The position numbers and the translations under genes were made by a program. The notes beneath the pieces are model-generated. The model saw only the letters and a program-made list of their open reading frames with translations. It ran no database searches and was not told where the DNA came from. 64,000 nt of DNA from Rhizobiales bacterium YIM 77505 (lineage in GTDB: Bacteria > Pseudomonadota > Alphaproteobacteria > Rhizobiales > Beijerinckiaceae). Below are positions 4,590 to 45,759 of the stretch, one piece after another (the first letter of the stretch is position 1; the number at the start of each line of letters is the position of its first letter). The stretch is taken from NCBI GenBank assembly GCA_000745135.1, contig JQNH01000001.1, positions 744,001 through 808,000 of the forward strand. Reading direction: 5' to 3'.

Positions 4590-4760
4590 CGCTCACCGAG
4601 CATCTGCGATCCTGGGCCGCCCATCAAGAGAGGAAGACATCGCGGAGCACGATCAGGGGCGGGTCGATCAGGGCTCGCCATTGCGCTGGGCGCGAAGATG
4701 GAGCATGCGCGAGGACGCCTGAGCCGTCACAGGCGCGCGCGGACTTCAGGGAGGGGCGAC

Positions 4761-6674: not shown

Positions 6675-6698
6675 CCCCGTCAGGAGAGGCTGGTATGG

Positions 6699-6713
6699 TT
6701 AACGAAAGGTTAA
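6699..6713 (-). promoter_or_regulatory. Candidate CtrA-type box TTAA-N7-TTAA
   Basis: The minus strand reads TTAACCTTTCGTTAACC, which contains TTAA, seven bases, TTAA(C), the full consensus of the alphaproteobacterial cell-cycle regulator CtrA. It sits 25 bases upstream of the C93 peptidase start at 6674, in a short AT-rich patch of otherwise GC-rich DNA. The match is seen directly; binding is inferred. Confidence 0.5.
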
Positions 6714-6794
6714 GCTCCGGGCGGTGAGAAAGCTCACAGGGCGAGCGCCGTCCTTGCGCGCCGGCACCGTTGCGGCGCCGCAACAGGTGGCGCG

Positions 6795-28557: not shown

Positions 28558-28735
28558 TCCTCTCCCCCCATGCGGGGAGAGGCCGACTCGGCGAAGCCGA
28601 GCGGGTGAGGGGGCGTTTCCGGATGCGCTCCATCCTGAAACGCCCCCTCACCCTCGCTTCGCTGTCGCTCCGCTCGCTCCGTCCGCCAGTCCGCGGACGG
28701 AGCCCTCTCCCCGCGCGCGGGGAGAGGAGGTGGGA
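28558..28735 (-). repeat. Composite palindromic repeat between def and fmt
   Basis: Three hairpins in a row: CTCTCCCC/GGGGAGAG at the left edge (around 28560-28582) followed by GACTCGGCGAAGCCGAG; a central hairpin GGGGGCGTTTC (28609-28619) pairing exactly with GAAACGCCCCC (28637-28647), extended by inner GGATG/CATCC arms; and at the right CTCTCCCCGCG/CGCGGGGAGAG (around 28705-28727). The central module recurs at 51268-51303. It lies inside a presumed operon and may affect mRNA stability or partial termination. Confidence 0.7.
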
Positions 28736-28752
28736 GCGCTGCGGCGATGGCC

Positions 28753-29271
28753 TCACCCTGCCGCCTCGCGCTTGGCCGCCTTGGCGAACTTCTTCGTCAC
28801 CCGCTCGCGCTTCAACCGCGAGAGGCGATCGATGAACAGCACGCCGTCGAGATGGTCGATCTCGTGCTGGACGCAGGTGGCGAAAAGCCCGTCCGCCTCG
28901 CGCTCGACCGTCTCGCCCTCCAGCGTCTGGTACGCCACCCGCACCCGCGCCGGCCGCTCGACCTCCTCGTAATAGTCGGGGATCGACAGGCAGCCCTCTT
29001 CGTAGACGCTCGTCTCCTCCGACGCCCAGGTGATCCGCGGGTTGATGAGGACGAGGGGCTGCCGCTCCTCGTCCTTCTTGGCGAGATCCATGACGACCAC
29101 GCGCTTCATCACACCGATCTGCACCGCCGCGAGGCCGATCCCCGGCGCATCATACATGGTGTCGAGCATGTCCTGCGCGAGCGCGCGGATGTCATCCGTG
29201 ATGGCGTCGACGGGCTCCGATTTCTCGCGCAGGCGCGGGTCGGGAAGGATGACGAGGGGTCGGATGGCCAT
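28753..29271 (-). CDS. def: Peptide deformylase
   Basis: Iron-dependent removal of the N-formyl group from new proteins. At 172 residues it is of normal length and shows all three class I motifs: [10 protein letters not shown] near residue 45, [13 protein letters not shown] near 93 (Cys metal ligand) and [14 protein letters not shown] near 137 (two His ligands and the catalytic Glu). It is the first gene of the def-fmt-truA group. The tail [19 protein letters not shown] is basic, as is usual. Confidence 0.96.
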
Positions 29272-29367
29272 GGCGCGCTGGAGATAGGGGAGAGCGGGGA
29301 AGGGGTCAAATGGGTCGCGCTTCGTTCGTGGACGAGCGCGCGGCCGCTCTCTTGGCCCTAACGCGCC

Positions 29368-30216
29368 TCAATCGCCGGCGTCATCCGGGCCGGACGCGCC
29401 CGGTGCCTGACCTGCGCCAAGCACCGTGAGAGCAACCCTGCGCTCCTCCTCGCCGCCCATGGCAAGAACACGCTCGAGATCTTCGAGGATGTCTCCTCGA
29501 GCGAAGGGGCGCACGCAGCGCCACAGTTCGGGGCTCACCGGCCGCCCCGCCGCCCAGCGCTCCCGGGCATAGTCCAGGAGCACGCGGGCAAGGTCGGCAT
29601 TCGCCCGCTCGTCGAGCCCCTGGATCGGCGCGAGCTCGGACCCGATGAAGAGAGCCTTCAGGACCATCTGGTTCCAGGACGCCTCACCAAACATCTCGCG
29701 CGGATACGGGTTTCGGTGCGCAACCGCCTCGAAGATCGGCCTCACCGCGGAGCGCACGCCCTCGGCGGCGAGGGGCAAGAGTTCGCGACCGGCCGCGAAC
29801 AGCGCCAGACCCCGCAGGAAGGCGATGCTTTCGCTCAGTTCGGCGGTTCGGTGGAGATCGAGCAGCCGCCGCGGAAATCCCGCCGGGTCCGCGGCCTCGG
29901 AGGCGAGGAGGAAGGCGATGCGGGCGGCCTGGTCCACGGTCAGTCCCGTCGGATCGAAGCCGGGGCGGAGCGCCGCCGCGCGCGCAAGATCCTCGTCCGT
30001 CAGGGAAAGATCGTTCTTGCCGAGCCGGCGGGAGGCAAGGCCGATCGCCCGCGCGAGGCTTCCGGCGTTGCTGCGCAGCTCGGCAAGGGTCTGCATGAAC
30101 CAGGCCGCGGGCTCCGGACCGGCCGCGCGGCGGACCCATTCGACGAGGAGCGCGACCCGTTCGGCCGATGGCGCGAGGGAGCTCTTCAGGGAGGCTGGGT
30201 GCATCCTCGGCCTCAT
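29368..30216 (-). CDS. eboA: EboA-like protein
   Basis: Helical protein of 282 residues resembling EboA of the ebo cluster known from cyanobacteria (scytonemin export locus), pseudomonads and eustigmatophyte plastids. No enzymatic motif is visible. Recognisable segments are FMQTLAELRSNAGSLARAIG, EMFGEASWNQMVLKALFIGS near residue 188 and LDERANADLARVLLDYARER, with the conserved NQMVLKALF helix. Its biochemical role is unknown. The start ATG 30216 overlaps the eboC stop (ATGA), so it is the last gene of the minus-strand arm eboD-eboE-eboC-eboA. Identification rests on family resemblance plus the surrounding five ebo homologues. Confidence 0.82.
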   Translation of the reverse strand: MRPRMHPASLKSSLAPSAERVALLVEWVRRAAGPEPAAWFMQTLAELRSNAGSLARAIGLASRRLGKNDLSLTDEDLARAAALRPGFDPTGLTVDQAARIAFLLASEAADPAGFPRRLLDLHRTAELSESIAFLRGLALFAAGRELLPLAAEGVRSAVRPIFEAVAHRNPYPREMFGEASWNQMVLKALFIGSELAPIQGLDERANADLARVLLDYARERWAAGRPVSPELWRCVRPFARGDILEDLERVLAMGGEEERRVALTVLGAGQAPGASGPDDAGD

Positions 30217-31085
30217 GTGCCGGGCACGAAGCGTTGCGCGACCCGGGTGGCGATATAGCCGCAGACGCACAGCGCCGCTGCACCGAGCGATGCCGGCGCA
30301 ACCATGAGCGCATCGACGAGACAGATGCCGGCGATCAGCGCGGCGACGCCCGCGGGCACCGCGTCGGGGCGGGCGCGGCGGCGCAGCGTGTCGACGGCAA
30401 GCCCATCCGCGATGGCGAGCGCCAGCCACAACAGGGCCGCCGGCCAGGAATGGGGAAGGGCTGCGGCTCCGACGAACAGGGGCACGGCGAGCACCGCAAG
30501 CGGCCAGAGCCGCTCGATCCGGTTGAGGCTCTCCTGCTTCGCTGCATAGGTGAGGCCGATCACATGCGCGGCGAGGGCAATCCCGGCAACCCACACCGCC
30601 GCCGGCACCGAGCCGACGCTCGCCGCCGCCGCGCCCACATAGACCAGGAGGCGGCACAAGCTCATCACGACCGGGCTCAAGGGATTGCCCTTGTGATGCA
30701 GATCGTAGAACACGATCACGCCGCAGAGCGCGAGCCCCGCGACCAAAGCGGGAGGGCCGCAGAGCGCCGTCAGCACGAGCCCGGCGCCCAGAAGGCCGAA
30801 GCCGATCGCGAACACTGTCGCCGCAGCGATCGCGCCTGCGGGGATCGGGCGGCTCGGCCGCTCGCGAGCGTCGATCTTACGATCGAAGGCGTCGTTGAGA
30901 TACATGCCGCCCACATAGAAGAGCGTCATCGCGAGCAGCGCGAGGGCGGCGCGCGGGCTGAGCGGATCGCCGCCCGCGAGCGCCGTCGCGGCGATGACGT
31001 TCGTCCACACGGTGGGGAGATTCGAGACCCGCCCGAGCCTAAGCAGCGTCCCGAGCGGCGCGGGCCCCGTCACGGTGGCGCTCAT
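30213..31085 (-). CDS. eboC: UbiA-family prenyltransferase EboC
   Basis: Integral membrane prenyltransferase, 290 residues, with about eight or nine helices. The two aspartate motifs of the UbiA superfamily are seen: NDAFDRKIDARERPSRPIPAG near residue 66 (NDxxDxxxD) and YDLHHKGNP near 126. It would transfer an isoprenoid chain to an unknown acceptor. ATG 31085 has a GGAGGAA site eight bases upstream and lies within the end of eboE (47-base overlap); its stop overlaps the eboA start. The close ties place it firmly in the ebo operon. The isopentenyl-diphosphate isomerase at 38661-39212 could supply prenyl precursor. Confidence 0.88.
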   Translation of the reverse strand: MSATVTGPAPLGTLLRLGRVSNLPTVWTNVIAATALAGGDPLSPRAALALLAMTLFYVGGMYLNDAFDRKIDARERPSRPIPAGAIAAATVFAIGFGLLGAGLVLTALCGPPALVAGLALCGVIVFYDLHHKGNPLSPVVMSLCRLLVYVGAAAASVGSVPAAVWVAGIALAAHVIGLTYAAKQESLNRIERLWPLAVLAVPLFVGAAALPHSWPAALLWLALAIADGLAVDTLRRRARPDAVPAGVAALIAGICLVDALMVAPASLGAAALCVCGYIATRVAQRFVPGT

Positions 31086-32283
31086 GGCGAAGTTCCTCCA
31101 GCACGAAAGACAGCTCGCGGGCGATATCATCGGCCTTGGAGCCGGTCTTGAGATCCTCGGGCAGCACGTCCCAGGTATAGGTCTCGACCTCCAGATGCGG
31201 CGCGAGCGGCGCCTCGCGCAGCGCCCGCAAGGTGGCCAGAAGCGTGTCCTGCGTCGTGCCGAGGGCGCCGAGCTCGGCGAGAAACACCGGCACGTGGCAA
31301 TGAATGCGCCACTCGCCTTGCGCCTCGCCCCTGCGGAAGGCGTCGAAGGCTTCGGGCAGGTCCGCGTAGCGGGTCAGCCGCTCCCCCGCGCTGGCGACGA
31401 CCTGGTGCAGGTAGATGCCGGTATCGAACGCCGCGAGGCGTGAGACGAGGGCGCCGGAGACCTGCGGCACGCGCAGGGCGGCGGAGAGCTGGATCTTGAA
31501 CGTGGCGATGCCGGCGCGCCGCAGGCTCTCGATCGCGGCAACCGGGTCCTCGTATTCGACCGCGCCGTGACAGACATCGTAGCAGACGCCGAGATGGCGC
31601 CGCAGCGCCGGCTCCGCCTCGCCGTGCGAGAGCCCTGCCAGCTGCGCGAAGCGGGCGAGCGAGGCGGCCGTCAGCAGGTGCCGCTCGAAGAACGCCATCG
31701 TCTCGTCGACCGTCTCGAGGAGGCAGCAGGGCTCCGGCTCGAGGGCGAGCGCGACATGCCGTCCGTTCTCGCGCTGCAGGGCGACGAGATGCGCCGCCGC
31801 CCGAAGGAGATGTTCGACGACACGAGCGACCGCGCGCGGGTCGCGCGCGACGGGCTTGAAGCCGCCAGGCACCGTCGAGACGCTGCCGAAGCCGCCCTCC
31901 GGCAACAGGGCGGCGAGCACGTCCGCGGCATCCCGCGTGAAGCGGAAACGCGCGTGGCTGCTCCAGTCCGGCTCGTACACCTGCTCCTTGACGCGCGTGC
32001 CGTGGAAGGGGCCGAACGGAAAGGCGTTGAGCGTGAACACATGGGCGTTGAGCCGCGCGAGCTCATCCTTGAAGCGCGCCAGCGCCGCCGGCCGGCGAAG
32101 CTCCGCGGCGGCCATGCCGGAGAGGCGCAGCCCAAGGCCGAACGGGGCGTCGGGAGAGACCTTCGCCTTGATGCGCGGCACATGCTCGTCGAGGCTCGCG
32201 CGGATCTCGTCCCAGGTCTCGCCCGCATGGATGTTGGTGCAGTAGGTGAGCTCGGGCGCGCCGGGAAGCTCGGCTAAGCGCAT
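31039..32283 (-). CDS. eboE: EboE, xylose-isomerase-like TIM-barrel protein
   Basis: A 414-residue TIM-barrel protein matching EboE ('metabolite traffic protein'). The hallmark N-terminal YCTNIHAGETWDEI is at residues 14-27, and further barrel segments are FTLNAFPFGPFHG, ALEPEPCCLLETVDETMAFF (probable metal glutamate), LGVCYDVCHGAVEY (Asp, His) and HCHVPVFLAELGALGTTQ. The substrate is unknown. It starts nine bases after the eboD stop and overlaps eboC, so it is translated as part of the same transcript. In cyanobacteria this gene set is needed to move a scytonemin precursor to the periplasm. Confidence 0.88.
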   Translation of the reverse strand: MRLAELPGAPELTYCTNIHAGETWDEIRASLDEHVPRIKAKVSPDAPFGLGLRLSGMAAAELRRPAALARFKDELARLNAHVFTLNAFPFGPFHGTRVKEQVYEPDWSSHARFRFTRDAADVLAALLPEGGFGSVSTVPGGFKPVARDPRAVARVVEHLLRAAAHLVALQRENGRHVALALEPEPCCLLETVDETMAFFERHLLTAASLARFAQLAGLSHGEAEPALRRHLGVCYDVCHGAVEYEDPVAAIESLRRAGIATFKIQLSAALRVPQVSGALVSRLAAFDTGIYLHQVVASAGERLTRYADLPEAFDAFRRGEAQGEWRIHCHVPVFLAELGALGTTQDTLLATLRALREAPLAPHLEVETYTWDVLPEDLKTGSKADDIARELSFVLEELRHERHRDGARAARDAA

Positions 32284-32292
32284 GGCAAGGCC

Positions 32293-33483
32293 CTACGCCC
32301 GCCGCTCGGCGAGCCAGCCGACCGCATCCGCGATCAGCGCGTGATCCATGCGGTTCACTTCGACTCCATGCCCGATCGCGTCGATGAGGGTGACGGTGAG
32401 CTCGCCGCCGAGATGCTCCTGGAACTCGCGCAGGCCCTTGAGGATCGCGAGCTGTCCGTCGGCGTCGCGCCGCGCCAGCGCCTCCGACCACAGGTCGAAT
32501 CCGAGCCGCCGCAGGAGGCGGTGCACGCGCTCATCCTCGCCGTCGGGCAGAAGCCCGCACAGCACCGCGTACCGGGTGTCGAGCGCGATGCCGATCGCCA
32601 CCGCCTCGCCGTGGCTGACCTGATGGTCTGTGAGACTCTCGAGCTTGTGCGCCGACCAATGGCCGTAATCGAGCGGCCGCGCGGAGCCCGTCTCGAAGGG
32701 ATCGCCGCCCTCTCCGATCTGGCGCATGTGAAGCCGTGCAGAGCGCTCGATCAGCCGATCGAGCGTGTTCGGGTGGAAGCGCGCCAGCGCGTCGGCGTTG
32801 GCCTCGATCCAGGCGAAGAACGCGCCATCGCGGATGAGTCCCACCTTCACCGCCTCGGCCATGCCGCCGCGCTTGTCGCGCGGAGCGAGGTGGTCGATGA
32901 AGGCCCCGTCGTTGATGATGGCAAAGGGCGGCGCGAAGGTGCCGACGAGGTTCTTCATGCCGAAGGCGTTGACCGCGTTCTTCACGCCGACCCCGCTGTC
33001 GGCCTGGGCCAGCACGGTCGTCGGCAGCCGCACATGCCGCACGCCCCGATGGAAGATCGCGGCGGCATAGCCGACGGCGTCGAGCACGGCGCCGCCGCCG
33101 ATCGCGACAGCGAAGGAATGGCGGTCGATGGCGCGCGCCGCAAGGGCGGCGAGAAGCCGCTCGACGAGCTCGGGCCGCCTCTTCGCTTCCTCCCCGCCCG
33201 GCACGACGACGAGGTCGCCCTCGATCCTCAAGGCATCCGCGTGGGCGGCCGCATAGCGCTGGATCGCGCGCTGAAGGCCAGGCATCGCCGCCAGAACGCC
33301 GCTGTCGATGAAGAGCGCGAGACGGTGGCGCTTCGTCCCTTCGCGGCGGCGCAAGGCGTCGACGAAGGTCGGGTTCTCCGGGTCGAAGGCGTTGCGCGTA
33401 AAGACGACCGGGAAATCATACGCCACGGCGAAGCGCTGGACGTAGGCTTCGCCCCAGGCTGCTCGCCGACTGCGGTCAAGCAA
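32293..33483 (-). CDS. eboD: EboD, 3-dehydroquinate-synthase-like protein
   Basis: Cyclase-like enzyme of 396 residues from the sugar-phosphate cyclase superfamily. NAD and metal motifs of dehydroquinate synthase are kept in modified form: GDLVVVPGGEEAKRR near residue 89, IGGGAVLDAVGYAAAIFHRG near 126, LPTTVLAQADSGVGVKNAVN near 153, and the zinc histidines in GHWSAHKLE and VSHGEAVAIG. It is longer than AroB because of an N-terminal extension (FAVAYDFPVVFTRNAFDPEN) typical of EboD. It is the first gene of the minus arm; 165 bases separate it from divergent eboF. It is unlikely to be the shikimate-pathway AroB given its neighbours. Confidence 0.9.
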   Translation of the reverse strand: MLDRSRRAAWGEAYVQRFAVAYDFPVVFTRNAFDPENPTFVDALRRREGTKRHRLALFIDSGVLAAMPGLQRAIQRYAAAHADALRIEGDLVVVPGGEEAKRRPELVERLLAALAARAIDRHSFAVAIGGGAVLDAVGYAAAIFHRGVRHVRLPTTVLAQADSGVGVKNAVNAFGMKNLVGTFAPPFAIINDGAFIDHLAPRDKRGGMAEAVKVGLIRDGAFFAWIEANADALARFHPNTLDRLIERSARLHMRQIGEGGDPFETGSARPLDYGHWSAHKLESLTDHQVSHGEAVAIGIALDTRYAVLCGLLPDGEDERVHRLLRRLGFDLWSEALARRDADGQLAILKGLREFQEHLGGELTVTLIDAIGHGVEVNRMDHALIADAVGWLAERRA

Positions 33484-33548
33484 GACGCACCCCCGGCTAC
33501 GGACGGCATCGACGCCGAACCTTTAACGATCTTGCCCCTGAACGGAAG

Positions 33549-33575
33549 GCGCCGTCAATCGGTGCGACGGCGCCG
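33549..33575. promoter_or_regulatory. Perfect 9-bp dyad between the two ebo arms
   Basis: GGCGCCGTC (33549-33557) and GACGGCGCC (33567-33575) are exact inverse complements around a nine-base loop. The site is in the middle of the 165-base divergent region between eboD and eboF, where a shared operator would be expected. An RNA hairpin in the eboF leader is the alternative. Confidence 0.4.
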
Positions 33576-33648
33576 CGGCGCCCCGCATTGACGCCTTGCC
33601 GAGCGGTCACAAGAATGTGCGTGAGGAAGGGCGCCCTCGCGACCAGTC

Positions 33649-35031
33649 ATGCAACCCACCCTCGTGCTGCTCGCGGTCGGGCTGACGCCTCGCCATCTCG
33701 GCCCTCACACGCCGGCGCTGTCGCGCCTCGCCGCTTCAGGCGGCATGCGTCCGCTCGACACCATCACGCCGGCCGTCACTTGCAGCGTCCAGGCCAGCTT
33801 CATGACGGGGCTTGCGCCGGCCGAGCACGGCATCGTCGGGAATGGCTGGCTCTTCCGCGATCTGATGGAGATCTGGTTCTGGCGGCAGTCGAACCGGCTC
33901 GTCCGTGGCGAGAGGATCTGGGAGGCGGGCAAGGCGCGCGAGCCCGCCTTCACCTGCGCCAACCTGTTCTGGTGGTACAACATGGCCGCGAGCTTCGATA
34001 TCGGAGCAACGCCGCGGCCGATCTACAAGGCCGATGGCCGCAAGCTGCCCGACTGCTACACCAAGCCGGCCGCCTTGCGCGACGACCTCACCGCGGAACT
34101 TGGCGCCTTCCCTCTGTTCCAGTTCTGGGGACCGGGCACCTCGATCGCCTCGAGCCGCTGGATCGGCGAGGCCGCCAAGCACGTGCTGGCGAAGCACCGG
34201 CCGACGCTGACGCTCGTCTACCTCCCGCATCTCGACTACGACCTGCAGCGCCATGGGCCGGACGACGCCCATCCGGCCGTCGCGCGCTCCCTGCGCGAAC
34301 TCGACGACGTGGCGGGCGAGCTCATCGCTGCCGCGGAGCGGCAGGGCCTCGCGGTGATGGTGCTGTCGGAATACGGGATCATGGCGGTGGATACGCCAGT
34401 CCACCTCAACCGGGTCCTGCGCGAGGCAGGGTTCCTCGCCGTGCGCGAGGAGGATGGCGCCGAGCTTCTCGACCCGGTCGCGTCCCGCGCCTTCGCGGTC
34501 TGCGACCATCAGATCGCCCATGTCTATGTCGCCGACCAGGCCCTCAAGAAGCCGGTCGCGAAGCTCCTCGAAGCGGTCGGCGGCGTCGACGAGGTCCTGG
34601 ACGAGGCGGGCAAGCGCGCCTACGGCCTCGACCATCCGCGGGCGGGCGATCTCGTGGTGCTCGCCGAGCGGAACGCCTGGTTCAGCTATTACTATTGGCT
34701 CGACGACAAGCGCGCCCCTGACTTCGCCCGCACGGTCGAGATCCACCGCAAGCCCGGCTACGACCCGGTCGAGCTGTTTCTCGATCCCGCGATCCGTTTC
34801 CCGAAGCTCGCCGTCGGCGCGCGGCTTGCGCGGCGGGCGCTCGGCTTCCGCACGCTCATGGACGTGATCCCGCTCGACGCCTCGCTCGTGAAAGGCTCGC
34901 ATGGGCGCGTCACGGCGCGCGCAGAGGATGGTCCCCTCCTCGTCAGCTCGCGGCCGGCGCTCCTTCCGGAAGGAGCGGTGGCGGCGACCGCCGTCAAGCA
35001 GCTCATCCTCGATCACGTCTTCAGCCCGTGA
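33649..35031 (+). CDS. eboF: EboF, alkaline phosphatase / nucleotide pyrophosphatase family protein
   Basis: A 460-residue member of the alkaline phosphatase superfamily (type I phosphodiesterase/nucleotide pyrophosphatase branch). The opening LVLLAVGLTPRHLGPHTPAL lies where the first metal site normally is, TPAVTCSVQASFMTGLAPAEHG at about residues 42-63 carries the threonine nucleophile region, YLPHLDYDLQRHGPD near 193 the Asp/His metal ligands, and VMVLSEYGIMAVDTPVHLN near 240 corresponds to the DHG site, here changed to EYG. It should release a phosphate or phosphonucleotide group from an unknown substrate. It begins the plus arm of the ebo locus. Confidence 0.87.
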   Translation: MQPTLVLLAVGLTPRHLGPHTPALSRLAASGGMRPLDTITPAVTCSVQASFMTGLAPAEHGIVGNGWLFRDLMEIWFWRQSNRLVRGERIWEAGKAREPAFTCANLFWWYNMAASFDIGATPRPIYKADGRKLPDCYTKPAALRDDLTAELGAFPLFQFWGPGTSIASSRWIGEAAKHVLAKHRPTLTLVYLPHLDYDLQRHGPDDAHPAVARSLRELDDVAGELIAAAERQGLAVMVLSEYGIMAVDTPVHLNRVLREAGFLAVREEDGAELLDPVASRAFAVCDHQIAHVYVADQALKKPVAKLLEAVGGVDEVLDEAGKRAYGLDHPRAGDLVVLAERNAWFSYYYWLDDKRAPDFARTVEIHRKPGYDPVELFLDPAIRFPKLAVGARLARRALGFRTLMDVIPLDASLVKGSHGRVTARAEDGPLLVSSRPALLPEGAVAATAVKQLILDHVFSP

Positions 35032-35185
35032 GACGACGCATCGATGATCGCGCTCGCAATCGCGTGAAGCCGCTTTCAACTGCCGTAGAGGAAGCCTAGG
35101 ATGCTTGCGGACCTTCGTCCCTTGCCGCCTCCCAGGCCACGCCTCTTTTTGGAGGCGGCCGAAGGTTCGAAAGGGAGGTACGCAG

Positions 35186-36601
35186 ATGCACGCTCGATGG
35201 CTTGCCGCAGTGCTTGCGGGAACGGTGCTGAGTGCGGTTCCGGCGGTCGCTCAAAAGATTCCGGAGACACCGGCGGAGGTCGCCCGGCCGGGCGGCACCA
35301 TCCCGGGCGCGCAGAAGATCGCGCTCGTCAAGGTGGCCGACGGTTTCAACGATCCGGTCGGAGTGTCGGTCGCCAATGACGGGTCGGGCCGCATCTTCGT
35401 CGTCGAGCGCGTCGGCCGCGTGAAGGTGGTGAAGGACGGGAAGGTGCTGCCCGAGCCCTTCCTCGACCTCACCAATTTCAACCCGCTCGGCACCGACGTG
35501 CAGACCGGCTTCGTCGAGCAGGGCTTATGGTCGATCGCCTTCCATCCGAAGTTCAAGGAGAACGGGCACTTCTTCGTCCACTATTCCTCGCTGCCGTTCA
35601 ACGGCGCCTCGCTCGTCGTCCGCTTCACGGTCGATCCGAGGAGCCCGGACGCGCTCTCGCCCGAGCAGGTGACCAAGACCGGCAAGGTCCTGATGAACAT
35701 CCCGCAACCCTACTACAACCACTATGGCGGCATGATCGCCTTCGGGCCCGACGGCAAGCTCTACATCGGCAAGGGCGACGGCGGCTGGGAGGGCGATCCG
35801 CTCGATGCCGGCCAGCGCCTCGACACGCACCTCGGCAAGCTTCTGCGCATCGACGTCGACGCGCCGGATGACGTCGCCTACACCGTGCCGAAGGACAACC
35901 CCTTCGCCCAGGCCGACAGGCCGCAGCTCATGTCGTTGTTCGGCATCTCGGAGCGGGACTTCGCGAAGATCAGGATCGGCGCCAAGCCCGAGATCTGGGC
36001 CTACGGCCTGCGCAATCCTTACCTGTTCCACTTCGACAAGCGGTCGGGCGACCTGTTCATCGCCGATGTGGGCCAGAACCATTGGGAGGAGATCAACTGG
36101 CAGCCCGCCTCCTCCAAGGGCGGCGAGAACTATGGCTGGCGCCACAACCAGGCCTCCCATTGCCATCCGACGACCGGGCCTGGCGAGAAATGCCCCGTCG
36201 TGGGCATTCTCCCCATCGCCGAGTACCCGCATGAGCAGCCCTATCCCGACGCTCCGAAGATGAAGGACGGGTTCGGCTGCTCGGCGCAGGGCCTCGGCGT
36301 CGCCAATTACGCCGGCTTCGACAAGGCGTATCTCGTCGGCGACTGGTGCACCGGACGGCTGTGGGGGATCGCCTGGGACAAGGGCGCCAACAAGTGGCAG
36401 ATGCAGGAGCTGCTCCAGGCCCAGCTGCAATTCACGGCGGGCCAGGTGGACGAGGACGGCACGATCCTCGCCACGAACTGCTACTGCTTCTACACCGACG
36501 ACAAGGGGCCGACGGCGAACCCGCCCGGCGCCCTCTGGCGCGTCGTTCCGGCCGACAAGGTGCCAAGTGGCGCCGAGGTCGCCAAGGTCGTCGCGAAGTA
36601 A
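35186..36601 (+). CDS. Secreted PQQ-dependent sugar (sorbosone/aldose) dehydrogenase
   Basis: Periplasmic quinoprotein of 471 residues. The signal peptide is MHARWLAAVLAGTVLSAVPA with cleavage after AVAQ (residue about 23). The six-bladed soluble-glucose-dehydrogenase-like propeller (GSDH, PF07995) shows DGFNDPVGVSVANDGSGRIF, GLWSIAFHPKFKENGHFFVH, NHYGGMIAFGPDGKLYIGKG (PQQ-site histidine), IWAYGLRNPYLFHFD (PQQ arginine) and IADVGQNHWEEINW. Extra cysteines (HCHP...KCPV, FGCS, NCYCF) suggest disulfides. ATG 35186 follows AAGGGAGG. A cytochrome c gene follows 63 bases on, giving a dehydrogenase-electron acceptor pair inside the ebo locus. The substrate is unknown. Confidence 0.88.
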   Translation: MHARWLAAVLAGTVLSAVPAVAQKIPETPAEVARPGGTIPGAQKIALVKVADGFNDPVGVSVANDGSGRIFVVERVGRVKVVKDGKVLPEPFLDLTNFNPLGTDVQTGFVEQGLWSIAFHPKFKENGHFFVHYSSLPFNGASLVVRFTVDPRSPDALSPEQVTKTGKVLMNIPQPYYNHYGGMIAFGPDGKLYIGKGDGGWEGDPLDAGQRLDTHLGKLLRIDVDAPDDVAYTVPKDNPFAQADRPQLMSLFGISERDFAKIRIGAKPEIWAYGLRNPYLFHFDKRSGDLFIADVGQNHWEEINWQPASSKGGENYGWRHNQASHCHPTTGPGEKCPVVGILPIAEYPHEQPYPDAPKMKDGFGCSAQGLGVANYAGFDKAYLVGDWCTGRLWGIAWDKGANKWQMQELLQAQLQFTAGQVDEDGTILATNCYCFYTDDKGPTANPPGALWRVVPADKVPSGAEVAKVVAK

Positions 36602-36664
36602 GGGGACGCAGGAGGCGGAGCCGCGCGGCTCCGCCTCCGCTTTTTCCAAGAGAATGGGTGGGCG

Positions 36665-37120
36665 ATGAGGGCAGGCGGGGCCGCGCTGTTCGGGTTGTGG
36701 GCCGCGTGCGTCGTGGCTGCGCCCGAGGCAAGATCCGACCCGGTCGTGTTCCGGCATGTCCTCGACAACTCGCCCCTGGAGGTGAAGCCGCGGCCGAACG
36801 AGGTCGAGACCGAGGCGGTGAAGCGCTTCAAGGAGACCGGGCAGAACCCCTACGCGGGCGAGGAGGCAGCGCTCGCCGAGGGCAAGAAGCTCTACCAGAC
36901 GAACTGCCAGGCCTGCCATCTGCCCGACGGATCGGGCCGGATCGGGCCGAGCCTGATCGACGGGAGCTGGAAATACGAACGCGTCGCGACGGATGTGGGG
37001 ATGTTCGAGATCATCTATGGCGGTGCCTCGGGCGCCATGCAGTCCTTCTCCCGTCGCGGCATGACGCAGGACCAGATCCTCAAGGTGATGGCCTATGTGC
37101 GGAGCCTGAAGAAGTCATGA
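36665..37120 (+). CDS. Cytochrome c, MxaG/XoxG (cytochrome cL) type
   Basis: Periplasmic mono-haem cytochrome of 151 residues with a signal peptide (GAALFGLWAACVVAAPEARS). The haem site is CQACH near residue 81. The flanking TGQNPYAGEEAALAEGKKLY, LPDGSGRIGPSLIDGSWKY and TDVGMFEIIYGGASGAMQSF are characteristic of cytochrome cL, the electron acceptor of PQQ methanol dehydrogenases. The likely methionine ligand is in AMQSF or RRGMTQ. Here the only PQQ enzyme nearby is the sugar-dehydrogenase-like protein just upstream, so this is probably its acceptor. The stop overlaps the eboB start (ATGA), tying it to the ebo transcript. Confidence 0.9.
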   Translation: MRAGGAALFGLWAACVVAAPEARSDPVVFRHVLDNSPLEVKPRPNEVETEAVKRFKETGQNPYAGEEAALAEGKKLYQTNCQACHLPDGSGRIGPSLIDGSWKYERVATDVGMFEIIYGGASGAMQSFSRRGMTQDQILKVMAYVRSLKKS

Positions 37121-38229
37121 CCAGCCAAGCGAACGGAAACGGCGGCTTCGCCTGCGAGCCGGCCCCATCGAGCGAGACGTCCATCCCCTGCCCCTGCTGC
37201 GGGGGCATGCTCACGCCGGCGATGGTGCGCGAGATCGTCAGGGCGGCGCGCGAGGCCGAGGCAGAGCCCAAGGGGGAGGGCGCGGCGCCGTCGGCGCGGC
37301 TTGCGGCGGGCGCGATGGTCATCGATCCCCATGCGCATATGATCTCCCGCACCACCGACGACTACGAGGCCATGGCGCGGGCGGGCGTGGTGGCCGTGAT
37401 CGAGCCGGCCTTCTGGCTCGGGCAGCCGCGCACGAGCGCGGGCACCTATCTCGATTACCTCTCGCTGATCGCCGGCTTCGAGCGCTTCCGCGCCGGGCAG
37501 TTCGGCATCCGCCACTACTGCACGATCGGGCTCAACCCGAAGGAGGCCAACAACGAGGAGCTTGCCGAGGCGGTGATGGAGATTCTGCCGCGCTTCGCCG
37601 TCAAGGAGGGCGTCGTGGCGGTGGGCGAGCTCGGCTATGACGAGCAGACCGCCCTCGAGGATCGCTATTTGCGCGCCCAGATCGAGCTCGCGAAGGACTA
37701 CGAGCTGCCGATCATGGTCCACACGCCCCATCGCGACAAGAAGCGCGGAACGCTGCGCACCATGGACGTGCTCGCGGAGCACGGCTTCGATCCGGGGCGC
37801 TGCGTCATCGACCACAACAACGAGGAGACGGTCGAGGACGTGCTCGAGCGCGGCTACTGGGTCGCCTTCTCGATCTATCCCGAGACCAAGATGGGCAACG
37901 AGCGCATGACCGAGATCGTGCGGCGCTACGGTCCGGAGCGCCTGATCGTCGACTCGGCCTGCGACTGGGGCGTCTCCGACCCGCTCGCCGTGCCCAAGAC
38001 CGCGCGCCTCATGGCCGAGCGCGGCATCGACCCGGAGGCGATCCGCGCCGTCACCTACGCCAACGCGCTTTCGGCCTATGGCCTCAACGGGGAGATGCGC
38101 GAGGAGCACTGGCTCGATCCGGCCCCCATCGATCAGCGCACGCTCTACCAGGGGAACTCGGTCCTGCGCGGCGGGCAGACGCCCGTGATCCGCACCCCCG
38201 GCCGTCCGGCCGACCTGCGCATCACCTGA
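37117..38229 (+). CDS. eboB: EboB, TatD-like metal-dependent hydrolase
   Basis: A 370-residue amidohydrolase-fold protein of the TatD group. The core begins MVIDPHAHMISRTTDDYEAM near residue 67 (HxH metal site) and continues with IEPAFWLGQPRTSAGTYLDY, GLNPKEANNEEL, VGELGYDEQTALEDRY (Glu ligand), PIMVHTPHRDKKRGT (His), VIDHNNEET (His) and DSACDWGVSDPLAV (Asp). An N-terminal extension of about 65 residues contains CPCCGGML, a possible zinc-binding knuckle. The start ATG 37117 overlaps the cytochrome stop. With this gene all six ebo homologues are present. The 3' end overlaps the convergent small secreted protein by eight bases. Confidence 0.88.
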   Translation: MTSQANGNGGFACEPAPSSETSIPCPCCGGMLTPAMVREIVRAAREAEAEPKGEGAAPSARLAAGAMVIDPHAHMISRTTDDYEAMARAGVVAVIEPAFWLGQPRTSAGTYLDYLSLIAGFERFRAGQFGIRHYCTIGLNPKEANNEELAEAVMEILPRFAVKEGVVAVGELGYDEQTALEDRYLRAQIELAKDYELPIMVHTPHRDKKRGTLRTMDVLAEHGFDPGRCVIDHNNEETVEDVLERGYWVAFSIYPETKMGNERMTEIVRRYGPERLIVDSACDWGVSDPLAVPKTARLMAERGIDPEAIRAVTYANALSAYGLNGEMREEHWLDPAPIDQRTLYQGNSVLRGGQTPVIRTPGRPADLRIT

Positions 38230-38650
38230 GGGAGGGCCGCCCGGCCGTGCGCCGGCAGGGATACATGTCGGCGAGCACATCCTCGAGCACGGCGGGGACC
38301 GGCCGCCCCGCCGATCCAATGCGCGCCGCCGACAGGCGCAGCAGCACATAGTCGAGGAAGGCGACCGGGTAGCTCGTCATCGGCATGGGGCTGGGGATCA
38401 GGGTCATCGGCATGCAGACGGTGCGCCCATCCGCCATGCGACGCACGATCTTGATCTCGGCCTCGATGCGCTCGAAGCACTCCCGGACCGGCGCGGCCTT
38501 GCAGGACACGACGAAGTCATAGAGCGGCTCCGCGCGCGCAGGCGCGGCGCTGGCGACGAACATGAGGGCTGCGAGGAGGCGCCTCGAACGCGGGTCGCGC
38601 CTCCCGTGTCGGCGGGCTGGCGCGAGGGCGGACCGTTGCGATGGGTCCAT
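38222..38650 (-). CDS. Small secreted protein, possibly Rap1a/Tai-like
   Basis: A 142-residue protein. The first 30 residues are basic (MDPSQRSALAPARRHGRRDP), followed by a hydrophobic signal LLAALMFVASAAPARA. The mature part LYDFVVSCKAAPVRECFERI, the internal ADGRTVCMPM, and the closing LADMYPC have the cysteine spacing and the '...yPC' end seen in Rap1a/Tai-type proteins, but the match is loose. It lies ten bases after idi on the same strand and may be co-transcribed. Its stop overlaps eboB by eight bases. Start ATG 38650 is the last one before the signal; the frame is open further up into idi. Confidence 0.6.
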   Translation of the reverse strand: MDPSQRSALAPARRHGRRDPRSRRLLAALMFVASAAPARAEPLYDFVVSCKAAPVRECFERIEAEIKIVRRMADGRTVCMPMTLIPSPMPMTSYPVAFLDYVLLRLSAARIGSAGRPVPAVLEDVLADMYPCRRTAGRPSLR

Positions 38651-38660
38651 GGCCGCTTGT

Positions 38661-39212
38661 TCACGGCGCGGCGCGGCGCGCGCTCGCCAGGGCCTGTTCG
38701 AGGACCGGGCGATGGTGCCGCAGATAGTGGTGAACCCAATAGGCGAAGGTCTCCGGCTCCCGGTCCAGCCTGCAAGCGAGCTCATCGAGGGTCATCGCGG
38801 CAAGGTCGACGATCTCGCGCGGGTTCGGCCGCGGCTCGCCCACGAGCCGGCCCACATACACGGAGACGATCTCGTTCTCCGCCATGTCGTTGTCGAACCG
38901 CGCCGCGTAGGCGGCCTGGAAGGCGCGGGCAAGCTTGGCGCGCACCCCCATCTCCTCGAACAAGCGCCGCTCGGCGCCCTTGATCGTCGCCTCGCCAGGG
39001 CGGGGATGGCCGCAGCAGGTGTTCGCCCACAGGCTGCCGGAATGATATTTCTCCGGGTGCCGCCTCTGGAGAAGGAGGCCGCCCTCGCTGTCCACGAGAA
39101 AGATCGAGAAGGCCCGATGAAGCAGGCCCTCGCGATGGACGTGCAACTTCTCCCCGGTGCCGATCCGGCGATTTCGCGGGTCGACGAGGATGACCCTTTC
39201 AAGATCCGCCAT
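38661..39212 (-). CDS. idi: Isopentenyl-diphosphate delta-isomerase, type I
   Basis: Nudix-fold enzyme of 183 residues that interconverts isopentenyl and dimethylallyl diphosphate. Visible motifs are LHREGLLHRAFSIFLVD (metal histidines), LQRRHPEKYHSGSLWANTCC (catalytic cysteine in NTCCGHPRPGE, near residue 71), and the Nudix-like AERRLFEEMGV with EENEIV-type AENEIVSVYVG. Normal length. Most alphaproteobacteria make both isomers through the DXP pathway, so this gene is dispensable and its place beside the ebo locus with a UbiA prenyltransferase may be functional. Start ATG 39212 gives MADLERVILVDPRNRRIGTG. Confidence 0.93.
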   Translation of the reverse strand: MADLERVILVDPRNRRIGTGEKLHVHREGLLHRAFSIFLVDSEGGLLLQRRHPEKYHSGSLWANTCCGHPRPGEATIKGAERRLFEEMGVRAKLARAFQAAYAARFDNDMAENEIVSVYVGRLVGEPRPNPREIVDLAAMTLDELACRLDREPETFAYWVHHYLRHHRPVLEQALASARRAAP

Positions 39213-39312
39213 CGCTCCACCGTAGCACACCGCGCGGGCGGGCGACATCGGCCTGGCCCGTGAGGCGGGCAAGGTAGAGGCATCGCGCCGCCTTCGTGCG
39301 AACCGCTCGTCC

Positions 39313-42204
39313 TCATCGGCCCCGCCGTTCAGCCTCTTCTGCCGCGTCGATGTGGGGCGATGCGGCAGGGCGATCCTCGTTGGCGGCCCGCACCACCCCC
39401 TCGACCGGCAGGCTGATGGCGCAGCGAAGTCCGTCGGGTTCGTAGCGCAAGGAGGCTTCCCCGCCGAGGTCGTAGGCGAGGGTCCGTTCGAGGAGTTCGG
39501 TTCCGAAGCCGCGCCGTCGGGGGCCCGGGTTCGGAAGCTTCACGCCCGTCTCCGTCCAATGGATGAGGAGCCGTGGGCCGTGCGGGGCGGCGTCCTCGAC
39601 GGTCCAGTGCACCTCGAGGCGTCCGCTCTTCGTGGAGAGCGCCCCGTATTTCACCGCATTGGTCGCGAGCTCGTGGAAGGCGAGTCCGAGCGTCTCCGCG
39701 GCCTGGGGCTGCAGGCGCACCTTGGGGCCGCCAAGGGCTCTCACCTGGTCGCCCTCATGGGCGCCATGTCCCAGGAGCTCGTCGGCGATCAGCATCTCCA
39801 GGTCGATCCCGGCCGTGGGGTCGCGGGTCGCCGCGGCCTGCACGCGGGCGAAGGCGTCGATCCGTCCGTCGAGATTCATGGCGTAGTCCTCGACGGACTC
39901 GCTCGTCGCGGCCGTCCGGCGGGCAATGGAGCGCACGATGCCGAGCGTGTTGCGCACGCGATGCTGCAGCTCCGCCAGCAGCACCCGCGCCTGGGCCTCG
40001 CTGCGGCGGAGCGCTTCCTGGGCGCGCGTCACGGCCGTGATGTCCGTGAAGGTCATGACCGCGCCGCCGATGTAGTTGTCGACGCTCCGATAGGGCAGGA
40101 CACGAACCATGTAGCGCGTCTGGGACGTCGGATTCCTCACTTCCCGCTCGACCGCGCCGAGCGTTCGCAGCACGCGCTTCACGTCCTCCTGCAGCTCGTC
40201 ATAGGCCACGCGCGACTTGATGTGGGCGATCGGACGGCCGATGTCGCTCTCGATGAGGTGGAAGACCTCCGTGACGGCCGGGGTGAAGTTCATCACGCGC
40301 AGGTCATTGTCGAGGAAGATCGTCGCGATCTGCGTGCTTTCCAGAAGGTTCTTCAGGTCGCTGTTCGCCCGCCCGAGCTCCTGGACGCGGTGGGCCAGCT
40401 CCCCGTTGACGGTGGTCAGCTCTTCGTTGACGGACTGCAATTCCTCCTTCGAGGTCTCGAGCTCCTCATTGGCCGACTGCAGCTCCTCGTTCAGGGACTG
40501 GTATTCCTCGTTCGAGGATTTCAGCTCCTCATTGGTGCTCTCCAGCTCCTCCACCGTCGCCTGCAGGCGCTCATTGGTCGTGCGCAGCTCCATTTCGAGC
40601 TGCTGGATCCGTTCGTCCTGGATAAGGGATGCGTCCGACGTCCCGCTGCCATTGGGGTCGGGCAGGGTCGGGCCGTCCTTGAAGAGGACGAGGAAGCTGC
40701 GTGCCTGTCCCGAGCTCTCGGGAATCGGTTCAACCACGATGTCCACCAGCATGCGGTGCCCGTTTAGGCTCAGGCGGAGATTGCTGGCCTGCTCCGCCGC
40801 GTTGTGCTCGACCGCCCTGGCGAGGGTCGAGCGCAGGTCGAGACGCAGATCGGGATGGACGAGGTTGAGCAGGTTCAGGCTCGCCACGCCGCCCGACGGC
40901 TCGAGAAAGCGCCCGGTCCGTCCCGAGAAGTGCAGCACGTTGAACGCTTCATCGACAATGACATAGGCGGGAGCGTAGCGCTCGACGATCCTCTCGGCGC
41001 GAAGGGCGAGCGCCGACTCCACGGCACGGGGCCGAACCGGCAGGGCTTGCGTATCGGCGACCTTGCGGTCCACCGCGGTGAACGGAAGGTCGGGAAGAAT
41101 GCGAGTGCCCACATCCAGCCGCTGGAAGATCCGCGACCGGCTCTCGACGGGAGCGAAGAGGGCAGGGTGCCGGGACACGTTCTCGGCGTTGCCGAGGAAC
41201 AGGAAGCCTCCCGGCTTCAACGCGAAATGGAACAGAGGGATGACCCGGCTTTGAAGGTCTGTGTCAAGATAGATCAGCAGGTTGCGGCAGGAGATGAGGT
41301 CGAGCCGGGAGAAGGGGGCGTCCTTGACGATGCTGTGCTGGGAGAAGATGCACATCTCGCGCAGCTCCTTGGCCACGCAGTAGGTGTTCCCTTCCTTGAT
41401 GAACCAGCGGGCGAGCCGCTCCGGCGAGACGTCCTTGGCGATCGCCGCCGGGTAGCGGCCGGCACGCGCGATTGCGAGAGCACGGCCGTCGAGATCGGTC
41501 GCGAAGATCTGCACCTGGGGCACCTGGTCGAGGAGCGCCATGCGCTCGCGCAGGAGGATGGCGAGGGAATAGGCTTCTTCGCCCGTGGAGCAGCCGATGA
41601 CCCAGATCCGGACCGAGTCGGCCCGTCCCTTGCCCTCGAAGATGCGCGGGATCACCTCGCGTTCGAGGACTTCGAATTCGCGCGCGTCGCGAAAGAACTG
41701 GGTAACGCCGATGAGGAGGTCGTTGAAGAGCAGCTGGGTCTCGTCTGCGCGATGGCGGAGGACATCCACGTATTGTTCAAGGGAATCGACCTCCATCACC
41801 TGCATGCGGCGCTGCACGCGCCTCAGGAAGGTGCCTCGCTTGTAGCCGTGGAAGTCGTGGCCGGTCCTGTTGCGCAGGATCGTCGCGATCCCGGCGAGCG
41901 CAGCCGCCACGTCCGGCGCATCGGGATCGAGCGCGCGGCTCGGGTGCCGGGCAAGCTTCGCGACGTAGAGGGCCGTCCGCTCCGCGAGCTCCTCGGGTGG
42001 AAGGAAGAAATCGGCAATGGCGGCTGGGCTGCTGCTCGCCGCCAGATCGTCCAGGTGGCCGTCGACCCGTCCGGCGAGGGTAAGCCCGCCGGCCTCCTTG
42101 ATGGCGGCGACGCCGAGCGTTCCGTCGCCTCCGACGAGGGGGAACAGGACGACGATCGCACGGCTGTCCTCCTGCCGCGCCAGGGACAGGAGGAAGCTGT
42201 CCAC
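39313..42204 (-). CDS. CheR-PAS-HWE histidine kinase hybrid (truncated CheB part)
   Basis: Downstream part of a CheB-CheR-PAS-HWE kinase gene split by a nonsense codon at 42307-42309. If restarted at GTG 42204 it gives 963 residues. A CheB remnant (GGDGTLGVAAIKEAGGLT) is followed by a CheR N-domain and SAM domain (WVIGCSTGEEAYSLAILLRE near 200; LISCRNLLIYLD near 300), a PAS segment, and a long heptad-rich coiled coil (NEELKSSNEEYQSLNEELQ, about 545-640). A second PAS (FLDNDLRVMNFTPAVTEV) leads to an HWE kinase (LLAELQHRVRNTLGIV near 763, ELATNAVKYGALS near 860, HWTETG). Whether the shortened product is made is unclear; no strong ribosome site precedes GTG 42204. Confidence 0.8.
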   Translation of the reverse strand: MDSFLLSLARQEDSRAIVVLFPLVGGDGTLGVAAIKEAGGLTLAGRVDGHLDDLAASSSPAAIADFFLPPEELAERTALYVAKLARHPSRALDPDAPDVAAALAGIATILRNRTGHDFHGYKRGTFLRRVQRRMQVMEVDSLEQYVDVLRHRADETQLLFNDLLIGVTQFFRDAREFEVLEREVIPRIFEGKGRADSVRIWVIGCSTGEEAYSLAILLRERMALLDQVPQVQIFATDLDGRALAIARAGRYPAAIAKDVSPERLARWFIKEGNTYCVAKELREMCIFSQHSIVKDAPFSRLDLISCRNLLIYLDTDLQSRVIPLFHFALKPGGFLFLGNAENVSRHPALFAPVESRSRIFQRLDVGTRILPDLPFTAVDRKVADTQALPVRPRAVESALALRAERIVERYAPAYVIVDEAFNVLHFSGRTGRFLEPSGGVASLNLLNLVHPDLRLDLRSTLARAVEHNAAEQASNLRLSLNGHRMLVDIVVEPIPESSGQARSFLVLFKDGPTLPDPNGSGTSDASLIQDERIQQLEMELRTTNERLQATVEELESTNEELKSSNEEYQSLNEELQSANEELETSKEELQSVNEELTTVNGELAHRVQELGRANSDLKNLLESTQIATIFLDNDLRVMNFTPAVTEVFHLIESDIGRPIAHIKSRVAYDELQEDVKRVLRTLGAVEREVRNPTSQTRYMVRVLPYRSVDNYIGGAVMTFTDITAVTRAQEALRRSEAQARVLLAELQHRVRNTLGIVRSIARRTAATSESVEDYAMNLDGRIDAFARVQAAATRDPTAGIDLEMLIADELLGHGAHEGDQVRALGGPKVRLQPQAAETLGLAFHELATNAVKYGALSTKSGRLEVHWTVEDAAPHGPRLLIHWTETGVKLPNPGPRRRGFGTELLERTLAYDLGGEASLRYEPDGLRCAISLPVEGVVRAANEDRPAASPHIDAAEEAERRGR

Positions 42205-44910: not shown

Positions 44911-45756
44911 GAGTCTGTTATGGACTGAGGGTGCGGCTATGGTGCGGGCATGATTGCTCGCAAGTCTTATCCCTCGGACGTTTCGGATGACGAATGGGCG
45001 CTGGTTGCGCCCTATCTTGCGCTCTTGCCTGAGGCGGCGGGGCAGCGGGAGCACTCGTTGCGCGAGGTGTTCAACGGGCTGCGCTATGTTGTCCGCAACG
45101 GCATTGCCTGGCGGGCGATGCCGAATGATCTGCCGCCTTGGGCGGCCGTGTATCAGCAGGCGCAGCGCTGGCTGCGGGCCGGTTCGTTCGAGGCGCTCGC
45201 CCACGACCTGCGCGTGCTGTTGCGGGTGGCGGCCGGGCGCCCGCCCGCACCCTCGGCCGCCATCCTCGACAGCCGGACGCTGCGCTCCACGCCCGAGAGC
45301 GGCCACCGCGCCGGCTATGACAGCGCCAAGCGCAAGAAGGGCTCCAAGCTGCACCTGGCGGTCGACACGCTCGGCCACCTCCTGGCCCTCCACGTCACCC
45401 CCGCCACGGCGGACGACCGCGCCGAGGTCGGGCGCCTGGCCGCCGCCGTGCAGCAGGCCACCGGCAACAGCGTCGAGATCGCCTTCGTTGACCAGGGCTA
45501 TACCGGCGACAAGCCGGCCGCGGCCGCCAGCGAACACGGCATCGCCCTGGAGGTCGTGCGCCTGCCCGAGGCCAAGCGCGGCTTCGTCCTCCTGCCCCGG
45601 CGCTGGGTCGTCGAGCGATCCTTCGCTTGGGCCACCCGCTGCCGCCGCCTCGTCAAAGACTACGAGCGCCTGCACACAACCCTCGCAGGCCTCCACGTCG
45701 TCGCCTTCGCTTGCCTCATGCTCCGTCAAGCCGCAGAACTGGTCCATAACAGACTC
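44911..45756 (+). mobile_element. IS5-family insertion sequence, complete
   Basis: An 846-bp element. The terminal repeats are GAGTCTGTTATGGAC at 44911-44925 and its exact complement at 45742-45756, a perfect 15-bp match. Each end is flanked by TA (44909-44910 and 45757-45758), a likely TA target duplication; because both sides read CTAGAGTC when viewed outward-in, a CTAG target is the alternative. One intact transposase frame fills the interior. Size and GAG termini resemble the IS1031/IS427 side of the IS5 family. Confidence 0.9.
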
Positions 45757-45759
45757 TAG
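44950..45759 (+). CDS. IS5-family transposase
   Basis: A 269-residue DDE transposase in a single uninterrupted frame. An N-terminal DUF4096-like domain (YPSDVSDDEWALVAPYL, LREVFNGLRYVVRNGIAWRA) is followed by the catalytic core: first aspartate in AAILDSRTLRS near residue 100, second in AFVDQGYTGDKP near 180, and the glutamate in RRWVVERSFAWATRCRRLVK near 220. The stop codon TAG (45757-45759) lies just outside the terminal repeat; its TA is the flanking dinucleotide, so the target site completes the gene. Confidence 0.92.
   Translation: MIARKSYPSDVSDDEWALVAPYLALLPEAAGQREHSLREVFNGLRYVVRNGIAWRAMPNDLPPWAAVYQQAQRWLRAGSFEALAHDLRVLLRVAAGRPPAPSAAILDSRTLRSTPESGHRAGYDSAKRKKGSKLHLAVDTLGHLLALHVTPATADDRAEVGRLAAAVQQATGNSVEIAFVDQGYTGDKPAAAASEHGIALEVVRLPEAKRGFVLLPRRWVVERSFAWATRCRRLVKDYERLHTTLAGLHVVAFACLMLRQAAELVHNRL

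Follow-up and report, generated by a model that had tools for sequence, protein, structure and literature searches.

The window, i.e., the whole stretch of 64,000 nucleotides considered here, carries an ebo gene cluster together with two further genes, which are both encoded on the plus strand and sit between eboF and eboB. The first of these (35186..36601, +) specifies a protein of 471 amino acids with an ATG start, an upstream GGAGGT ribosome-binding site and an N terminus which, judged by eye, resembles a signal peptide. The ORF call, a match to the Pfam family PF07995 (GSDH), the orthologs and the fold of an orthologous fused protein mark it as a propeller of the GSDH fold and a candidate periplasmic dehydrogenase. 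The second gene (36665..37120, +) codes for a cytochrome cL-like c-type cytochrome of 151 amino acids, which features a single CxxCH motif as well as an invariant methionine (Met125) and represents a candidate dedicated electron acceptor. Its stop overlaps the start of eboB by 4 bp (ATGA). This arrangement had been described in the earlier note and is borne out by the ORFs, the Pfam match and the ATGA overlap. The downstream eboB (37117..38229, +) encodes a TatD-like hydrolase with an N-terminal CPCC extension, and the product of the upstream eboF (33649..35031, +) belongs to the type I phosphodiesterase/nucleotide pyrophosphatase family (PF01663, 208.2 bits). The remaining ebo genes are located on the minus strand and comprise eboD (32293..33483; AroB-like, i.e., DHQ-synthase-like sugar phosphate cyclase), eboE (31039..32283; NF035939, 451.8 bits, cut-off 250), eboC (30213..31130; UbiA-like prenyltransferase, PF01040 80.1 bits, NF035940 93.6 bits and thus under the cut-off of 250) and eboA (29368..30177). 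The latter matches the EboA domain model NF035938 with 150.7 bits (cut-off 50) and the whole-length EboA model NF035937 with 202.6 bits, under the cut-off of 320. With EboE and the EboA domain above their cut-offs and homologs of EboB, EboC, EboD and EboF adjoining, the locus is an ebo cluster. A gene for isopentenyl-diphosphate isomerase (38661..39272, −; NF002995, 147.1 bits, cut-off 127) lies farther downstream. Such genes are recurrent neighbors of ebo loci, which is compatible with a prenylated ebo product.

The earlier note had regarded a shared transcript as likely on account of the stop-start overlap. This holds for the cytochrome and eboB, as the coupling of both genes is well supported by the ATGA overlap in the window and its retention in the related loci L064, L067 and L070 (it is absent in L131). 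The continuity of GSDH and cytochrome is uncertain, however, with the gap between them containing a GC hairpin of 12 pairs (36611..36638, +) and five consecutive T directly behind it (GCTTTTTCCA). Accordingly, a single operon from eboF to eboB, in which eboF and GSDH would be separated by 154 bp, was not accepted. The hairpin is the longest of five terminator-like sites in the region 28600–39400, for which shuffled sequences yield 4.0 on average. Gaps between GSDH and cytochrome are frequently structured: among the 39 foldable ones of unfused relatives and the window, 29 gave z < −2, while three others were too short. Under a slightly different start rule and with the window left aside, the same was found for 29/35 of these gaps vs. 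2/15 of the other gaps at the same loci. Since a T tail behind the hairpin was seen by eye in just a handful of relatives, an intercistronic stabilizer which sets the protein ratio is as likely as a terminator.

The window GSDH reaches 108.5 bits against PF07995 (cut-off 25) and is therefore a member of the Pfam family, as are all 66 sequences of the family alignment (E 0.01). Against TIGR03606, the model of PQQ-dependent glucose/sorbosone dehydrogenases, it scores 39.3 bits only and remains far under the cut-off of 434.55. Its closest named relative originates from a Microvirga MAG (L064, 89% identity), so that kinship of the host with Microvirga is probable. The structure was assessed by means of an orthologous protein of the locus L141, in which propeller and cytochrome are fused and whose GSDH part is 63–65% identical to that of the window. 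Its prediction from the 66-row alignment attained a pLDDT of 86.1 and a pTM of 0.88, compared to a pLDDT of only 62.8 for the window protein's own model from a 10-row alignment. The human protein HHIP is the top PDB match of the propeller by sequence as well as by Foldseek, where it (TMt 0.64) is followed by 2ism, 3a9g, 3das and sGDH. In VIA-align comparisons, with matches mostly covering residues 39–466 of the model, 2ism (Z 36.5, rmsd 2.6, 321 aligned), HHIP 7pgm (Z 36.1, rmsd 2.8, 341 aligned) and 3a9g (Z 36.0, rmsd 2.9, 330 aligned) are ties. The propeller may be a catalytic dehydrogenase and, judged by eye from its N terminus, would be a secreted one. The C-terminal part of the same model matches cytochrome cL 7c90 (TMt 0.73–0.75, 37–38% identity) and also 2d0w (both Foldseek).

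Regarding the cytochrome itself, the best NCBIfam match is TIGR03872 (cytochrome_MoxG) with 123.6–126.3 bits, under the cut-off of 147.8, and the best PDB matches are cytochromes cL. Cys81, Cys84, His85 and Met125 are invariant in all ten cytochromes next to the orthologs of the order, with Met125 presumably acting as the axial heme ligand. Together with the cL-type fold, seen in the orthologous fused domain, the CxxCH motif and the methionine assign the protein to the cytochrome cL fold. It is the sole TIGR03872 match of the genome at E 1e-8. A partner of the MxaF/XoxF type was searched for in the same genome via TIGR03075 with zero matches at E 1e-60 and no candidates at first look, so that a methanol dehydrogenase was ruled out as the partner and a role of the cytochrome in serving such an enzyme here is unlikely. 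The pairing that the earlier note had called uncommon, a cytochrome cL beside an enzyme of the sugar dehydrogenase type instead of a methanol dehydrogenase, is supported by this result and by the gene fusions described below.

The recurrence of the pair at other ebo loci, on which the earlier note had made its reading depend, was found within the order. Out of 297 genomes, 21 matched the window GSDH at E 1e-20, and ten of these, including the window's own, hold orthologs (at least 613 bits, the next match scoring 169). The nine others are 60–69% identical to the window GSDH, and in all ten genomes the cytochrome is directly downstream. EboE exceeds its cut-off in 14 of the 297 genomes; all ten ortholog carriers belong to them, vs. 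none of the 283 genomes devoid of eboE (Fisher p 8e-16, relatedness ignored). A chance adjacency of pair and ebo genes was ruled out by this association. Nine of the ten pairs adjoin ebo genes despite a variable gene order, the exception being G098 with pair and ebo genes on different contigs. Besides, a second pair was encountered, which consists of a distant GSDH-fold gene (roughly 26–37% tblastn identity with the window GSDH) and a cytochrome c differing from that of the window and featuring the motif CxxCHGxxAYPGKAP. It is situated beside ebo genes in G098, G013, G181 and G283, where the first pair is absent, and G108 and G157 harbor both pairs there. Consequently, one or both pairs occur at the ebo locus in 13 of the 14 genomes of the order with eboE, and the remaining one (G102) shows neither within 10.5 kb. 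In the class sample, EboE was detected in 11/385 genomes, one being the window's own. Among the ten others, eight feature the second GSDH at the ebo locus, seven of them with the second cytochrome detected, and L180 and L186 have neither pair at this site. Taking the order and class samples together, a GSDH-fold gene of either kind accompanies the ebo locus in 21 of 24 alphaproteobacterial eboE genomes. The phylum sample contained EboE in 3/398 genomes, the window's own included, and the two other loci, both outside the class, lack either pair.

When genome contigs were searched by means of the GSDH alignment, 145 places were confirmed, of which the best 80 were analyzed. At least one ebo gene was present in the flanks (<1 kb to 10 kb) of 36 of these 80 loci. 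As to the 44 others, 39 showed no eboE match in the whole genome, and five encode EboE elsewhere, i.e., two Burkholderiales (L068, L072), two Planctomycetota (L126, L132) and a MAG of the Rhizobiaceae group (L127). The ebo loci of L068, L072 and L127 carry the second pair, and the two planctomycete stretches contain EboE only and neither pair. No eboE match was obtained for any of the 33 acidobacterial carriers, most of which are MAGs and possibly incomplete. Thus, the first pair occurs independently of ebo, which counts against an ebo product as its universal substrate, and an endogenous ebo product is unlikely to be the substrate in carriers without eboE.

The position of the cytochrome was assessed in 73 of the best 80 loci (seven were left out). 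In 69 of them it is located downstream of the GSDH gene on the same strand, and 29 of these have both joined in a single ORF of 571–626 codons (27 acidobacterial and two planctomycete loci). As both proteins are fused in 29 loci, GSDH and cytochrome form one unit. The four deviating loci comprise a contig ending there (L133), a cytochrome upstream on the same strand (L138), a cytochrome about 2.7 kb away on the opposite strand (L135) and a locus at which no cytochrome was found (L143). Cytochrome_CBB3 (PF13442) is recognized by Pfam in 29/66 members of the family alignment. In a tree of 77 rows, rooted at the midpoint, all fused rows fall on one side of a single branch (99/97). Five Burkholderiales rows cluster with three ebo-linked alphaproteobacterial rows (100/96), and this cluster lies inside a ten-row set including the window sequence (99/95), which suggests a transfer of the pair without its linkage to ebo. 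Directly downstream of the pair, L066 and L071 encode a TonB-dependent receptor (Pfam), and the downstream stretch in L065 is 33% identical to the L071 receptor, resulting in a receptor-like gene in three of the five Burkholderiales loci. ORF clustering was applied to the non-ebo loci with regard to a conserved third gene; it delivered one family of large proteins, TonB-like by eye, in at least 14 of the 44 loci among the matches listed, which was disregarded as its position is not fixed.

The cofactor of the propeller was approached by mapping the PQQ site, for which the family profile was aligned with YliI of E. coli and related proteins, including 11 canonical rows. We take Arg406 and the Arg228-Asn229 pair of sGDH to belong to the site residues of PQQ enzymes. 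Roles of Lys377, Arg408 and His144 in sGDH have been described (PMC6881789). The places of Arg406 and Arg408 are both occupied by arginine in 11/11 canonical relatives, vs. 0/66 in the family alignment, which features glutamine or methionine, and threonine, instead (Gln415 and Thr417 in the window GSDH). The equivalents of the catalytic histidine and of the Arg-Asn pair (His179, Arg276, Asn277) are kept in 66/66, and a set of His, Arg, Asn, Gln, Trp, Glu and Asp positions is identical in all 66 sequences. At the place of Lys377, 65/66 sequences show a cysteine (Cys388), adjoining the invariant Trp387, and a further cysteine (Cys365) is likewise found in 65/66. The lost lysine was dropped as an argument against PQQ, since this place is variable in the canonical relatives, too (Lys in two and Arg in one of the 11).

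Moreover, the genome, a complete single contig, revealed no match for PqqC or PqqE, and it also encodes a canonical GSDH in which both arginines are retained (L001). Within the order, PqqC is present in 102/297 genomes. It was detected in 6/10 pair genomes vs. 96/287 others (Fisher p 0.10) and is missing in four of the ten, the window's own among them; PqqE exceeds its cut-off in the same six genomes among the 14 eboE genomes. PQQ alcohol dehydrogenases of TIGR03075 occur in the six PqqC-positive pair genomes and in none of the other four, and these enzymes could be the cause of the slightly higher PqqC share. In a further set of 41 genomes, corresponding to 43 of the 80 loci chosen by hand with Hyphomicrobium rows omitted, so that the share is not representative, eight contain PqqC and 33 do not. 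Based on the loss of two arginines and the missing PqqC and PqqE, the dependence of the window GSDH on PQQ appears doubtful from sequence, while the somewhat higher PqqC share of pair genomes counts against this doubt. The PQQ label given in the earlier note is therefore not established, although the catalytic histidine and the Arg-Asn pair speak for it.

In comparison with known systems, the window family shares the six-bladed propeller, the catalytic histidine and the Arg-Asn pair with sGDH and YliI/Asd of PF07995. It differs from them by the loss of both C-terminal PQQ-site arginines and by the addition of a dedicated cytochrome, which is fused in some phyla. The fungal AA12 enzymes CcPDH and CcSDH likewise combine a propeller dehydrogenase with a cytochrome and altered PQQ ligands, but the cytochrome is of type b there and of type c here, and the aligned regions are just 10–12% identical. 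As in MxaF/MxaG and XoxF/XoxG, a cytochrome of the cL fold is the likely acceptor for a periplasmic dehydrogenase, whereas the partner here exhibits the GSDH fold and the window cytochrome stays under the TIGR03872 cut-off. Human HHIP offers the nearest solved structure and is also short of several PQQ ligands; unlike the bacterial pair, it is a human signaling protein, and the likeness concerns fold and sequence. We know of no cytochrome partner of HHIP. In the scytonemin system, ebo exports a metabolite, for whose oxidation the periplasmic protein ScyE has been proposed, with ScyE being a different protein from the GSDH propeller. It is the scytonemin monomer that is exported by ebo and that ScyE is proposed to oxidize in the periplasm (PMC6282210); the word cytochrome is absent from the main text of this study. 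The ebo operon has been reported for 148 taxa with a mention of inserted non-ebo genes (PMC5133447), and the main text of that study contains none of the words glucose, cytochrome and PQQ. Titles and abstract openings listed from an open-access library disclosed no link of ebo to GSDH or a cytochrome.

The observation of the earlier note is thus sound and broader than first stated, and its interpretation is partly supported. It concerns a dehydrogenase-like propeller which is equipped with a cytochrome of its own and was apparently recruited to ebo. We give about an even chance to the explanation that this pair is a periplasmic dehydrogenase-cytochrome module recruited to oxidize a product exported by ebo. 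The propeller would act as a secreted dehydrogenase in the periplasm and would reduce its dedicated cytochrome cL, which would presumably hand the electrons on to the respiratory chain. Either this unit or the distant second propeller-cytochrome pair may have been recruited into the ebo cluster of Alphaproteobacteria, and the substrate would most likely be a compound which ebo synthesizes or translocates through the inner membrane, by analogy with the scytonemin precedent. The fusions, the linkage to ebo, the sole TIGR03872 match and the lack of a TIGR03075 match count for this explanation. Against it count the 39 of 44 non-ebo pairs in genomes without eboE, the split locus of G098 and the ebo loci without either pair, and the propeller could moreover be a binding protein like HHIP. 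The oxidation of the ebo product in the periplasm, as suggested in the earlier note, can lean on the proposed function of ScyE and is unlikely to extend to the many carriers without eboE. The cofactor may, in this explanation, be PQQ bound in an unusual manner or a compound different from PQQ.

Alternatively, the unit may consist of a conventional sugar or alcohol dehydrogenase and its cytochrome acceptor, which uses PQQ made by the cell or scavenged and whose adjacency to ebo is regulatory or historical. This was dropped as a secure assignment and kept as a rival that is possible, yet on the unlikely side. It was kept since PQQ is used by a known enzyme despite altered ligands: CcSDH of Coprinopsis lacks several of the usual ones and is nevertheless PQQ-dependent (PMC4133262). 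The GSDH fold with its conserved histidine and Arg-Asn pair, the structures 2ism, 3a9g and 3das aligning at Z 35.1–36.5, the somewhat commoner PqqC in pair genomes and the variability of the Lys377 place in canonical relatives point in the same direction. To our knowledge, E. coli also encodes YliI without synthesizing PQQ, which resembles the situation of L001 in the present genome. The two arginine places, conserved in every canonical relative and substituted throughout the family, argue against an ordinary PQQ enzyme, as do the pair genomes without PqqC in the order and in the hand-picked set, the low TIGR03606 score and the retention of the ebo linkage through many rearrangements. The same loss of arginines in 66/66 would suit a propeller with a non-PQQ cofactor, e.g., a protein-derived quinone or the ebo product, from which electrons reach the cytochrome; Cys388 next to the invariant tryptophan, the conserved Cys365 and the redox center that a dedicated cytochrome would imply are in line with it. 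Still, the cysteines may be plain disulfides and the acidobacterial carriers lack eboE, and we consider such a cofactor improbable. Even less probable is a propeller that merely binds a substrate or serves as a scaffold without redox chemistry, similar to HHIP, with the cytochrome having another partner. HHIP, its top PDB match by both approaches, also misses several PQQ ligands (PMC4133262), whereas the 29 loci with a propeller-cytochrome fusion and the identical residues in all 66 sequences count against such a role. Finally, a more far-reaching proposal, to which we attach little probability, is that proteobacterial ebo constitutes a periplasmic redox pathway. An exported cyclitol-prenyl compound would then be the substrate or cofactor of a PQQ-free, HHIP-like propeller, with electrons passing via cytochrome cL to the respiratory chain, and Burkholderiales, with the pair off ebo and by a TonB-dependent receptor, would scavenge this compound.

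The conserved pair may provide a lead to what the widespread ebo cluster produces and what it serves for. At alphaproteobacterial ebo loci, it would offer a measurable output, i.e., the electron transfer to cytochrome c, and cultured genera such as Hyphomicrobium, Sulfitobacter and Bradyrhizobium are available for tests of the ebo-linked pair. In addition, a subgroup of GSDH proteins is marked whose label, PQQ-dependent sugar dehydrogenase, may mislead.

The EboB protein encoded in the window features an N-terminal extension of about 66 residues (37117-37314), which carries a CPCC motif and gave no match in Pfam. Extensions of a similar kind, likewise bearing CPCC, were also found in the Microvirga MAG locus L064 and in three other loci of GSDH relatives (L067, L070 and L131). 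Additionally, a 187-aa ORF on the minus strand (38222-38785) overlaps the IPP isomerase ORF and gave no Pfam match either; a part of this ORF recurs next to several ebo loci with an identity of 31-40%. Further along the window, an ORF on the plus strand (44950-45759) resembles an IS5-type transposase by eye.

In the Burkholderiales loci L066 and L071, which are devoid of ebo genes, the pair is directly followed on its 3' side by genes for TonB-dependent receptors (6493-8370 and 3185-5086, respectively).

Besides, the window genome (G000) encodes a canonical, aldose-sugar-dehydrogenase-like GSDH (L001, C1:2651035-2652021), and neither PqqC nor PqqE was detected over the cut-off in this genome. 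The second GSDH of L064 (2413-3698) was matched as two adjoining pieces located in different ORFs, and none of this kind was found in the window genome. Accordingly, the second pair may be decaying in this lineage, or else the split may reflect an error in the L064 MAG.
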